A DNA stretch of 64,000 nucleotides from Paracidovorax citrulli (GTDB taxonomy: Bacteria; Pseudomonadota; Gammaproteobacteria; Burkholderiales; Burkholderiaceae_C), in assembly GCF_900100305.1 (NCBI RefSeq), contig NZ_FNEY01000029.1, forward strand, positions 1 to 64,000, in the 5' to 3' direction. Under the pieces are notes generated by a model that searched no databases, was not told where the DNA came from, and worked only from the letters and a program-made list of their open reading frames with translations. The translations under genes were made by a program, and so were the position numbers. Position 1 is the stretch's first letter. Each line of letters opens with the position of its first letter. Of this stretch, positions 60,983 through 64,000 are shown piece by piece.

Positions 60983-61087
60983 CAGCGCCCGGGCACAGGC
61001 CGAGCCCCTGGCACCTGCCGGCGCGGGAGCACCATCCGGGCCATGGTCCGGACGCTTCACGACGAGGGGAAATGGAAAAGGGAATTC

Positions 61088-61134
61088 TGGCGCGGCTGGC
61101 GGGGATCGAACCCACGACCCTTGGCTTCGGAGGC
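61088..61134 (-). other. att site: 3' half of a tRNA-Arg(CCG) gene at an integration junction
   Basis: Read on the minus strand this is the 3' half of a tRNA: anticodon loop CTCCGAA (CCG), then GCCAA, a variable region, T-arm GTGGG-TTCGATC-CCCGC, acceptor strand and CCA at 61088-61090. The 5' half is absent: the sequence before the anticodon loop (TGGGC instead of TTGGC) does not pair and there is no D-arm. A tyrosine recombinase gene starts about 100 bases inside. This is the expected left junction of an element inserted in the anticodon loop of a tRNA gene, with the intact gene at the other end. The core may be 47 bases. Confidence 0.8.
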
Positions 61135-61183
61135 CCAAACTATCGGTTTATGAATCAAATAGATAGCGAATTTTTTTGAATTC

Positions 61184-61202
61184 TTGGCACAGTTTTGGCA
61201 CA
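61184..61202 (+). repeat. Tandem TTGGCACA direct repeat before the integrase
   Basis: TTGGCACA occurs at 61184-61191 and again at 61195-61202, an 11-base period, one helical turn. It lies between the att site and the integrase start. Such closely spaced short repeats are typical of arm-type binding sites of a tyrosine recombinase or of its regulator. Confidence 0.6.
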
Positions 61203-61234
61203 CTACAAAAAAAGTAGCAACCAGACCAGCCAAG

Positions 61235-62233
61235 ATGCCGACCATTCGCAAAAAGGGCGATCACCAATGGCACGCGCAAATCCGTAAGCGCGGCTACCCC
61301 AGCCAGACCCGCACCTTCACCACCCGCGCCGACGCCGAACGCTGGGCCACCATCGTGGAATCGGAAATGGAACGGGGCATGTTCGTCTCCCGCACAGAGG
61401 CCGAAGCCACCCTGGTCAGCGACGCGGTGGAACGCTATCGGCGGGAAGTGCTGCCGTCCAAGCGCGGCAAGGCCGCGGACGAATCCCGGCTCAAAACGCT
61501 GCTCAGGTACTTCGGAAGCTACAAGCTCGCAGCCCTCACCTCGACGCTGATCGCTCAGTTCAGAGATGAGCGATTGACCGCAGTCGGCCCCCAATCCGTC
61601 ATTCACGAGATCAACCTGCTCAATCGCGTGCTGAAAGCTGCGGTGATGGATTGGGGCATCGCCCTGCCTCATGGCCTTCCCACTACGAACGTCCGCAAGC
61701 CCGCGAAGCCAAAGGGACGGGAGCGCCGCGTTAGCCAAGAGGAAATTGCCGCCATCGTTGCGCACAGCAGCTCCAGCGAGTTGTCCGTCGCTATCACCGT
61801 AGCAGTCGAAACAGGCATGCGCCGGGGCGAGCTGGCCGCGCTCACCTGGAGCAATGTGGACCTGATCAAACGTACTGCGCATATTCCCCTGACGAAGACA
61901 GATGCCCCGCGTACGGTGCCGCTCTCTTCGACGGCTGTTGCAGCCTTGCAGCGTCTGCTGCCCCCTCATACCGAGGTCATCGGAAAAGACCGGCGAGTGT
62001 TCGCCATGCAGGCCGCGTCCATGCAGCAGGCATTGGAGCGTGCCTGCCAGGCGCATCGCGCGGACATCCACAACCTACGGTTTCATGATCTGCGCCACGA
62101 GGCAACCAGCCGCTTCTTCGAGAAGGGGTTGAGCATGATGGAGGTGGCGGCTATCACCGGACACAAGACGTTGGAGATGCTCAAGCGGTACACCCATCTC
62201 AGAGCGGAGGACTTGGCAAAGCGGCTGGGGTAA
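61235..62233 (+). CDS. Tyrosine recombinase (integrase) of the integrated element
   Basis: A 332-residue integrase. The N-terminal arm-binding domain (about residues 1-60) and SAM-like core-binding domain precede the catalytic domain with R196 in TGMRRGEL, H284-x-x-R287 in HDLRH, H310 in TGHKTLEML and nucleophile Y319 in KRYTH, all present. It will catalyse excision and integration at the tRNA-Arg site. No Shine-Dalgarno is visible; a longer frame begins at 61184 but would use the direct repeat as coding sequence. A cargo operon with lower GC follows. Confidence 0.9.
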   Translation: MPTIRKKGDHQWHAQIRKRGYPSQTRTFTTRADAERWATIVESEMERGMFVSRTEAEATLVSDAVERYRREVLPSKRGKAADESRLKTLLRYFGSYKLAALTSTLIAQFRDERLTAVGPQSVIHEINLLNRVLKAAVMDWGIALPHGLPTTNVRKPAKPKGRERRVSQEEIAAIVAHSSSSELSVAITVAVETGMRRGELAALTWSNVDLIKRTAHIPLTKTDAPRTVPLSSTAVAALQRLLPPHTEVIGKDRRVFAMQAASMQQALERACQAHRADIHNLRFHDLRHEATSRFFEKGLSMMEVAAITGHKTLEMLKRYTHLRAEDLAKRLG

Positions 62234-62307
62234 GGCTCATCCGTCAATCTCGCTGCCTTGCAAGCTGCACAGGGTGAATCTGAATAACAGTTATATGAGA
62301 GATAAAA

Positions 62308-63201
62308 TCAATAGAAGCCGAGCAGCCAAAAGGCGAAAAGCAATACTCCGACGGCGAGGAATAAAAGCACGCCTTTAATCATTGGCAATCCGCCAAGTAC
62401 CGACACAAGCCATGAAGGAGTTGGACGTTTTGAGTCCCATGGCGACGGAATTACCAGCCCGTGCGCTATGAAAGGCCTCCAGAAATTCTCAAAATGCTCG
62501 TCTGTAAAAAAGTCGCTATGCCCGTAATCAAAAAAACGATCCGTGACACGGGCCGTTTTAAATCCAAAAGACCCGCTTTCCCCGTACCCCCATGTTGCCA
62601 CACGCGCGAAAACAGGCCAAATATCCCGCGTCCCCACTTCGTTGACACATGTTTTATCCGTAAATTCGTGTGGCAACTGATCCCACCGAAAGGCTGCAGG
62701 AATAATTGACCCACAAAGCAATAGTCTTTGAATTCGGATATCAGGGGCGTCTTTGAGAATCTTTGATATGACGTAGGTACCAAAGCTGTGGGCCATTACG
62801 ACCAGTTCACAACCTGGATTCAGCCTCTGCAAGTCGCGAAGTTCGCGAGTAACTCGATCTACCGCATGACCGCGACAAGGGCCAAGAAATCTTATAACAT
62901 CTTTATATCGATATCCGATGGGCACGACCTTGATTGCACCAGGCACATCCAGGGCGGCACGAGCCTTTTCTTGCCATCCTGCGGCGGTACGGATGCCGTG
63001 AAGTAGAGCGACCACAGTTAATTTGGCCGCCGCTGCCGCAATATCCAAGCCTGAACAATATAGATCAAAACCCGCCTCAAGAAGCGCATGATGCTCTTTA
63101 GGATGCGCAGCCTTATAGCCTCGAAAAGCACTCAACATCTCTTTATCCGAGATGCCCGAAAGAAATTCCTTGAGCTTGCCAAGTAAGTCTTCTGGCTTCA
63201 T
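62308..63201 (-). CDS. Alpha/beta hydrolase with C-terminal membrane anchor, island cargo
   Basis: A 297-residue protein. An N-terminal helical region (1-60) is followed by a hydrolase core with the oxyanion segment VVALLHGIRT, nucleophile Ser139 in VVMAHSFGTYVI, and a candidate catalytic His228 in YGHSDFF. A C-terminal membrane helix (IKGVLLFLAVGVLLFAFWLLG, residues 275-295, shown in part: VLLFLAVGVLLFAF) ends the protein. It may hydrolyse a lipid or small-molecule ester at the membrane. It is the last gene of a leftward operon: its ATG overlaps the stop of the preceding gene (ATGA). GC is visibly lower than in the backbone. Confidence 0.7.
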   Translation of the reverse strand: MKPEDLLGKLKEFLSGISDKEMLSAFRGYKAAHPKEHHALLEAGFDLYCSGLDIAAAAAKLTVVALLHGIRTAAGWQEKARAALDVPGAIKVVPIGYRYKDVIRFLGPCRGHAVDRVTRELRDLQRLNPGCELVVMAHSFGTYVISKILKDAPDIRIQRLLLCGSIIPAAFRWDQLPHEFTDKTCVNEVGTRDIWPVFARVATWGYGESGSFGFKTARVTDRFFDYGHSDFFTDEHFENFWRPFIAHGLVIPSPWDSKRPTPSWLVSVLGGLPMIKGVLLFLAVGVLLFAFWLLGFY

Positions 63202-63569
63202 GGCGACTCGGCAACATAATATGTACGGAGGACATCCGGCGTGACCTCCATCCACATATCGCGGTGGTGATCATGCAATCGGTTTGGCACCTCATCTATT
63301 GACGAGTATTCAGCGACACCGCCCCCTGCGGGTGACTCAACAACGATGACTCTCCGTAGAATATGCTCCGACAGTAGCAGCGAAATCAGCATAGCGAGCT
63401 CATGACTTGAGTCGATCTCGCTGATTTTTTGAAGGTACCGGGGTTCCAGCCGAATTTTCCCCAAACGCTGCTGTGTTGCGGCATCCTCCAAATACCTTTC
63501 TACCAAGCGCAGTGCCTTGGTAGCAGAAGGAACTTGTTCAGTTATTTTCGAGAACTTGGTGGAGAACAA
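63198..63569 (-). CDS. Unknown island cargo protein (123 residues)
   Basis: A protein with no recognised domain. It is charged and helical in the first half (MFSTKFSKITEQVPSATKAL, LVERYLEDAATQQRLGKIRLE) and ends with strand-like segments (ILRRVIVVESPAGGGVAEYS). Its stop overlaps the hydrolase start, and its likely start overlaps the end of the upstream gene by 32 bases, so the three genes are coupled. The overlap length makes a later internal start possible. Confidence 0.5.
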   Translation of the reverse strand: MFSTKFSKITEQVPSATKALRLVERYLEDAATQQRLGKIRLEPRYLQKISEIDSSHELAMLISLLLSEHILRRVIVVESPAGGGVAEYSSIDEVPNRLHDHHRDMWMEVTPDVLRTYYVAESP

Positions 63570-64000
63570 ATTCGTACTCCTCTTCAGTTATCGCAGCGGT
63601 AACAGCAAATTCATTGTCTTCACCATTGAGAAGCACATGAATTTCCTTCAAAACCTCTTCTCCGTCTGCAATCTTGAAGTACACATTCGAATCAGCACAA
63701 TATGTGGTATCTGCGTCGAATTCAGCCAAGCTCTTTGCAATGCGTTCGCTATCCGCCAAATCATCAGCATTTACAGCAGTATTGGCACGAAGTGTCATCC
63801 CTTCATCGTCGCGGAGGGTATAAGTAGAGAACTTCACCAAACTCTGCAGTTCGACTCTTTTCTCCCAGAGATTTTTCTTAAGGCTACTTAAAGATACCTC
63901 TTTGAACTCGGTGCGCGGAAAAATTGATCGCAACCGGTAGAAAAACTGACCCAAGTCATCTTTGTACTTAGTTGAGTTATCGCGAGAAGCGATTCGAACC
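63538..64000 (-). CDS. Unknown island cargo protein, C-terminal part (5' end beyond window)
   Basis: The reading frame is open to the right edge (the last visible residues upstream are VRIASRDNSTKYKDDLGQFF), so this is the C-terminal 153 codons of a longer protein. The visible part contains a basic stretch (RLRSIFPRTEFKEV), a strand-rich middle (TYTLRDDEGMTLRANTAVNADDL) and an acidic end (ITEEEYEFVLHQVLENN). No family is recognised. It overlaps the next gene, and its low GC matches the hydrolase operon. Confidence 0.5.
   Translation of the reverse strand, partial: VRIASRDNSTKYKDDLGQFFYRLRSIFPRTEFKEVSLSSLKKNLWEKRVELQSLVKFSTYTLRDDEGMTLRANTAVNADDLADSERIAKSLAEFDADTTYCADSNVYFKIADGEEVLKEIHVLLNGEDNEFAVTAAITEEEYEFVLHQVLENN

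Follow-up and report, generated by a model that had tools for sequence, protein, structure and literature searches.

Which function is carried by the three overlapping genes that lie beside an integrase gene at the end of a stretch of Paracidovorax citrulli DNA? The stretch, hereafter called the window, comprises 64,000 nucleotides (assembly GCF_900100305.1, contig NZ_FNEY01000029.1, positions 1 to 64,000). Its right-hand end harbors a fragment of tRNA-Arg(CCG), the integrase gene and a leftward operon encoding the proteins that we call P1, P2 and P3. With moderate confidence, and on the grounds of sequence comparisons, we regard this trio as an unrecognised mobile conflict system, probably directed against phages, in which P1 and P2 would control the membrane-tethered, lipase-like effector P3.

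Organization of the operon

The trio (Table 1) differs from the remaining DNA in base composition, its GC content being 0.48-0.51 as against 0.70 at positions 1-61000 of the window. P2 and P3 overlap by 4 bp and P1 and P2 by 32 bp. P1 is cut by the window end and is whole on the contig (C57), where it comprises 354 amino acids from an ATG located 602 bp past the window end, or 363 amino acids from an upstream TTG. The first-pass annotation, made from the letters of the window, had described an overlapping leftward operon of lower GC whose first protein is cut by the window and whose products could not be named as a combination, and both statements held. Neither P1 nor P2 matched anything significantly in Pfam, PADLOC, NCBIfam or PHROGs (best E 0.045), while P3 showed only hydrolase matches under the cut-off in Pfam (best 0.0023) and none to the PADLOC models. 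Sequence searches of the PDB yielded nothing for P1 and P3 at E 1, and nothing at E 0.01 for the fused hydrolases introduced below. A description of the trio was not found in the literature searched by idea or accession, a scope that left most subscription papers and bioRxiv outside.

Distribution of P1 and its partners

P1 is rare. It was present in three of 399 genomes of an order sample (the own genome, G275 and G352), in two of 399 genomes of a family sample (own and G1114) and in one of 398 genomes of a phylum sample (own). The P1 motif E-x2-G-x-Q-H-V-x-L was used to scan the genome contigs of 84,980 species, by which 34 stretches were matched and 13 of them confirmed (L038-L050). A motif search with alignment A6 disclosed three viral contigs (L064-L066), and the P1 of L046 as query gave two plasmid records. 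As a query, the own P1 had no match among 72,556 plasmid records, and as a single sequence it matched 21 stretches of the viral contigs, none of which was confirmed; the P1 of L038 found nothing among the plasmids or among 50,697 phage records. L046 and G352, whose P1 proteins are identical and whose contigs are equally long, were counted as one locus, and the P1 reading frame of L049 was assigned by hand. Altogether, 21 P1 loci from several phyla were obtained, comprising the own locus, G275, G1114, L038-L050 (L040 from Castellaniella, L042 from Duganella levis), the plasmid loci L031 and L032, and L064-L066.

Because the loci were found by P1, the partners are independent of the search. A hydrolase was encoded at 20 of the 21 loci. 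P1 is followed by a separate P2 gene at eleven loci (split form), whereas at the other ten the hydrolase has an additional N-terminal region at the position of P2 (fused form). A P2 profile applied to 299 genomes of the phylum detected the own genome only. The distances of P1 and P3 were strongly correlated over 20 loci (Mantel r 0.95, P 0.0001), which is partly due to the divide between split and fused forms. Within the ten split loci the correlation was r 0.54 (P 0.0009), within the ten fused loci r 0.96 (P 0.0001).

Properties of the three proteins

The hydrolases share the residues H68, G69, S139, D193 and H228 (numbering of the own P3), which are invariant in all 20 sequences and include the catalytic triad in the order Ser-Asp-His. 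Nucleophile elbow and triad are thereby those of an alpha/beta serine hydrolase. According to its hydropathy, the own P3 possesses a hydrophobic segment near the C-terminus (residues 278-296). Such a segment was detected in five of six split and in all eight fused hydrolases examined (14 of the 20), the exception being L039, for which none was seen at the cut-off. The triad and the segment agree with the membrane-anchored alpha/beta hydrolase that had been predicted at the outset, and the position of the segment suggests that the enzyme faces the cytoplasm. A wider P3 profile gave weak matches only, to a 'transmembrane protein' (0.012), an alpha/beta hydrolase (0.19) and lipases (0.52). At L041 the slot of P3 is occupied by a different membrane protein, 185 amino acids in length and with several hydrophobic segments, which would represent an effector replacement, a multi-helix membrane protein being used instead of the hydrolase. 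In favour of this, it scored 9.5 bits with an N-terminal profile of P3 made from six sequences, as against 5.1 bits for the highest of 1,000 shuffles.

The P1 proteins of the various loci consist of 330 to about 365 amino acids. Residues L43, E85, Q90, H91, L94 and R187 are kept in all 21 sequences and G88 and V92 in 20, the motif used for searching lying around E85-L94. An AlphaFold2 model calculated from 13 P1 sequences, with that of L038 in first place, reached a mean pLDDT of 87.2 and a pTM of 0.82. It predicts four N-terminal helices; these are succeeded by a beta-rich body, in which there are two long strands, and by a C-terminal part of mixed structure. We propose that P1 acts as a sensor or regulator of the P3 effector.

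For P2, a wider profile likewise disclosed weak matches only, to a NirD-like protein (0.037) and to DsvD (0.94), both of which we take to be winged-helix proteins. P2 is suspected to be a winged-helix adaptor.

Genomic settings of the loci

Seven of the 21 loci reside on integrative elements, in a prophage or on viral contigs; two are plasmid-borne, five lie near recognised defence genes and eight could be assigned to neither kind of setting. Recurrence of the trio in other genomes and close to known defence genes, which the first-pass annotation had wished to see examined, was hence encountered in both respects.

Beside the own locus, which belongs to an integrative element at tRNA-Arg(CCG), G275 is bounded by a perfect 58-bp repeat derived from ssrA and G1114 by a 126-bp repeat at 95% identity, each with a gene that reads like an integrase. 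L040 is part of a prophage, with phage neck genes on one side of the module and the tape-measure gene on the other. On the viral contigs L064-L066, lysis and integrase genes were named by reading of the sequence, and in L066 the trio lies between tRNA-Ser and the presumed integrase gene.

Among the loci near defence genes, L038 is situated between hsdS and hsdR of a type I restriction-modification system and L044 directly after hsdS of another. The plasmid locus L032 lies 238 bp after BilB-BilC-BilD and is also close to a GajB-like helicase gene. L039 precedes a TOTE primase gene by 4.6 kb, and L050 is near a gene with matches to LmuA (6.7e-22) and RTasMBL (1.4e-16). Pooled PADLOC scans of 66 and 68 neighbour proteins contained, among the families listed (25 of 157 and 25 of 252, respectively), more defence families, which are not assignable to single loci.

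Proposed function and alternative explanations

A controlled conflict system acting at the membrane fits the mobility of the module, the defence neighbours at part of the loci, the conserved catalytic effector with its hydrophobic C-terminus and the one replacement of this effector. Further support comes from the recurrence of the partners with P1 and from the parallel divergence of P1 and P3. Most probably, the trio would defend its carrier against phages or competing mobile elements. P1, with its helical N-terminal domain and beta-rich body, may sense a signal linked to infection, and the small P2 may couple P1 to P3. The hydrolase, whose C-terminal segment presumably tethers it to the cytoplasmic side of the inner membrane, would be inactive until triggered and would then attack a membrane lipid or another acyl ester, whereby the infected cell might be stopped or killed.

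Several points weigh against this interpretation. The function of the module is inferred from the sequences. The proximity of five loci to defence genes is an uncontrolled count, and for L041-L043 and L045-L049 (eight of 21) no mobile or defence setting could be assigned, several of them reading as ordinary chromosome. As 16 of the 21 loci had been picked by the motif itself, its conservation at these is by construction, and among the conserved P1 columns L43 and R187 alone do not depend on the search; P1 relatives without the motif were missed. The own P3 contains a second, weaker hydrophobic stretch at residues 49-67, which makes its predicted topology tentative. Taken absolutely, the score of the L041 protein is a low one (E 0.065 in that search). 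The P2 profile matched the N-terminal region of the fused hydrolases weakly, with a probability of 28.7% when built from seven sequences and 16.5% when built from eleven, and the whole fused hydrolase with a probability of 1.4%. By its position and this weak match, the region may correspond to P2.

The main rival is an addiction module similar to toxin-antitoxin systems, which would stabilise the mobile element: P3 would be a membrane toxin that P1, P2 or both keep in check, and cells losing the element would die. The overlapping genes, the potential toxicity of a hydrolase and the location of the trio near the attachment end of the element in the own locus, G275, G1114 and L066 are what such a module would display. 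It is nonetheless rather unlikely in view of the large size of P1, of the position of L038 between, and of L044 next to, genes for type I restriction, and of the failure of P1 and P2 to match antitoxin families in the four libraries named above.

We judge it improbable that the trio serves lysogenic conversion or superinfection exclusion, with P3 constitutively modifying envelope lipids or surface esters and thereby blocking the entry of related phages. The occurrence of the trio in a prophage and on viral contigs, near genes reading like lysis genes or an integrase gene, would suit this explanation, as would a gene of L065 that reads like an acyltransferase gene. A constitutive enzyme, however, should have no need of two conserved partners, and the hydrophobic segment near the C-terminus points to an enzyme on the cytoplasmic side. 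Equally improbable is a metabolic esterase operon without a role in conflict, to which the several loci among genes reading as housekeeping would correspond, since P1 is rare and patchy in the three genome samples (the own genome being counted each time), nine of the 21 loci are on mobile elements or plasmids, and the hydrolase is replaced in L041.

Relatives of P3 and likeness to known systems

Relatives of P3 were also observed outside the P1 module. On the Bradyrhizobium plasmid p1 (L028:5965-9777), such a gene is separated by a single gene from a short CD-NTase gene, comprising the N-terminal part only, and a SAVED-domain gene, which together resemble CBASS. On a Klebsiella plasmid (L030:907-9389), another lies between the Gabija genes GajA/GajB and an OloB gene, and the N-terminus of its product reads like a nucleotidyltransferase. 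L029:1531-6705 and L037:1774-6729 contain three-gene operons, each coding for one large and one small protein and for a P3-like hydrolase extended at its N-terminus; the hydrolase gene of L037 is annotated as a response regulator. In a HATPase search, the large partner of L037 gave a match under the cut-off (2.4e-5), that of L029 none at E 0.001.

Among the described systems, Lamassu (LmuABC; ABC three-component systems) resembles the trio in that an effector, a small middle protein and a third protein are encoded in one operon, and an alpha/beta hydrolase is among the effector domains listed for LmuA in PMC10586767. Lamassu was rejected, as its SMC/ABC ATPase LmuB was not recognised: neither P1 nor P2 matched significantly in Pfam, PADLOC or NCBIfam, nor did P3 match any PADLOC model. 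EAD-coupled NTP-dependent conflict systems (PMC7159879) resemble the trio in combining variable effectors with a constant core, sometimes by help of small adaptor domains. Unlike in those systems, neither an NTPase nor an EAD was recognised in the trio by Pfam. Bil (L032) and type I restriction-modification systems (L038, L044) are neighbours of the module, CBASS-like genes (L028) and Gabija (L030) neighbours of related hydrolases; none of the PADLOC models of these four systems matched P1, P2 or P3. A CD-NTase in the operon, as expected of CBASS, was not found among the three proteins with PADLOC.

The integrative element and its flanks

The last part of the window is one end of a foreign integrative element, which is inserted at the 3' end of tRNA-Arg(CCG) and contains remnants of conjugation and replication genes. 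Its integrase gene is adjacent to a 3' copy of tRNA-Arg(CCG), and the intact tRNA was called by ARAGORN at the other end, on another contig of this genome (C59). In four relatives (L008, L009, L011, L015) the site is empty, both chromosomal flanks meeting at the tRNA, with the right-flank alignment of L015 ending 265 bp short. The two ends of the element are thus on different contigs (C57 and C59). Inside the window, ARAGORN called no tRNA. The fragment has its CCA end on the low-coordinate side and retains the anticodon loop and the encoded CCA.

Table 1. Features at the right-hand end of the window and on the adjoining part of contig C57
Feature	Position	Strand	Evidence
Attachment-site copy, tRNA-Arg(CCG) 3' fragment	61080-61141	-	94% match, 62 bp in length, with the intact tRNA (contig C59)
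Tyrosine recombinase/integrase	open reading frame 61184-62233, likely start ATG 61235	+	PF00589 (Phage_integrase) 1.3e-28; phrog_1 9.6e-64
P3, alpha/beta serine hydrolase, proposed effector	62308-63201	-	297 aa; triad S139, D193, H228
P2, middle protein, TTG start, suspected winged-helix adaptor	63198-63569	-	123 aa; homologues in 11/11 split loci
P1, proposed sensor/regulator	63538 to past window end	-	C-terminal 153 residues in the window; conserved columns of 21 loci
Ribbon-helix-helix gene	past the trio on C57		RHH_1, 4.3e-6
Small gene, reads as membrane-bound	past the trio on C57		no family above cut-off
trbL	past the trio on C57, outermost		TIGR02783, 2.4e-65

The tRNA 3' half and the complete tyrosine recombinase reported in the first-pass annotation were thus confirmed, the latter with all of its residues R196, H284, R287, H310 and Y319 (numbered from ATG 61235). 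Its proposal that an extension to the right would reveal the intact tRNA and further cargo proved correct in part. Contig C57 continues for 4,239 bp beyond the window end and does contain more DNA of the element, but it ends in multicopy sequence without reaching the intact tRNA, which was located on C59. Of the two outcomes named beforehand as speaking against the annotation, namely ordinary chromosome without an intact tRNA or cargo, and well-known unrelated homologues of the three proteins, neither was encountered. As to a defence role of the cargo, which it had suggested, we infer the same.

The trbL gene is interrupted and runs into sequence occurring at 17 places in the genome, including the query itself. 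A RepA_C gene (1.9e-16) comes after the intact tRNA on C59, a contig that likewise ends in multicopy sequence. The multicopy contig ends (L020:8145-8239 and L021:13601-13937) were each found at 17 places, queries included, and probably are insertion sequences that broke the assembly. With its integrase at a tRNA, RepA_C gene and TrbL, the element resembles trb-type integrative conjugative elements. It differs from them in the interrupted trbL and in the absence of a match to the VirB4 model TIGR00929, the one model tried, which had none in the own genome compared to matches in eight of 14 control genomes, though assembly gaps could hide genes. Due to the broken trbL and the missing VirB4 match, the element probably represents a decayed one of the integrative or conjugative kind, and a functional integrative conjugative element was dropped as an interpretation.

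In two relatives (L022, G004:C13; L023, G011:C36), a second tRNA-Arg(CCG) copy exists approximately 12 kb and 6.8 kb, respectively, from the intact one, with an integrase-like match between the two copies in each case. To judge from these relatives, the site appears to be a hotspot of integration. The chromosomal flank on the side of the intact tRNA (L021:4759-10135) contains genes reading like an RND efflux pump and a TetR-type regulator.

Implications

The wider claim, to which we assign about an even chance, is that the trio represents an undescribed immune system, rare, often mobile and present in several phyla, in which a new sensor family (P1) and a small adaptor unleash interchangeable membrane-acting effectors, mostly the hydrolase and in at least one lineage a multi-helix protein. 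If so, a sensor family absent from the libraries searched would have been found not by homology but by where it lies, namely within mobile DNA, and the range of systems with alpha/beta hydrolase effectors would widen. For studying how such effectors are controlled, a ready design would be offered by the two forms, split and fused, together with the replaced effector of L041.

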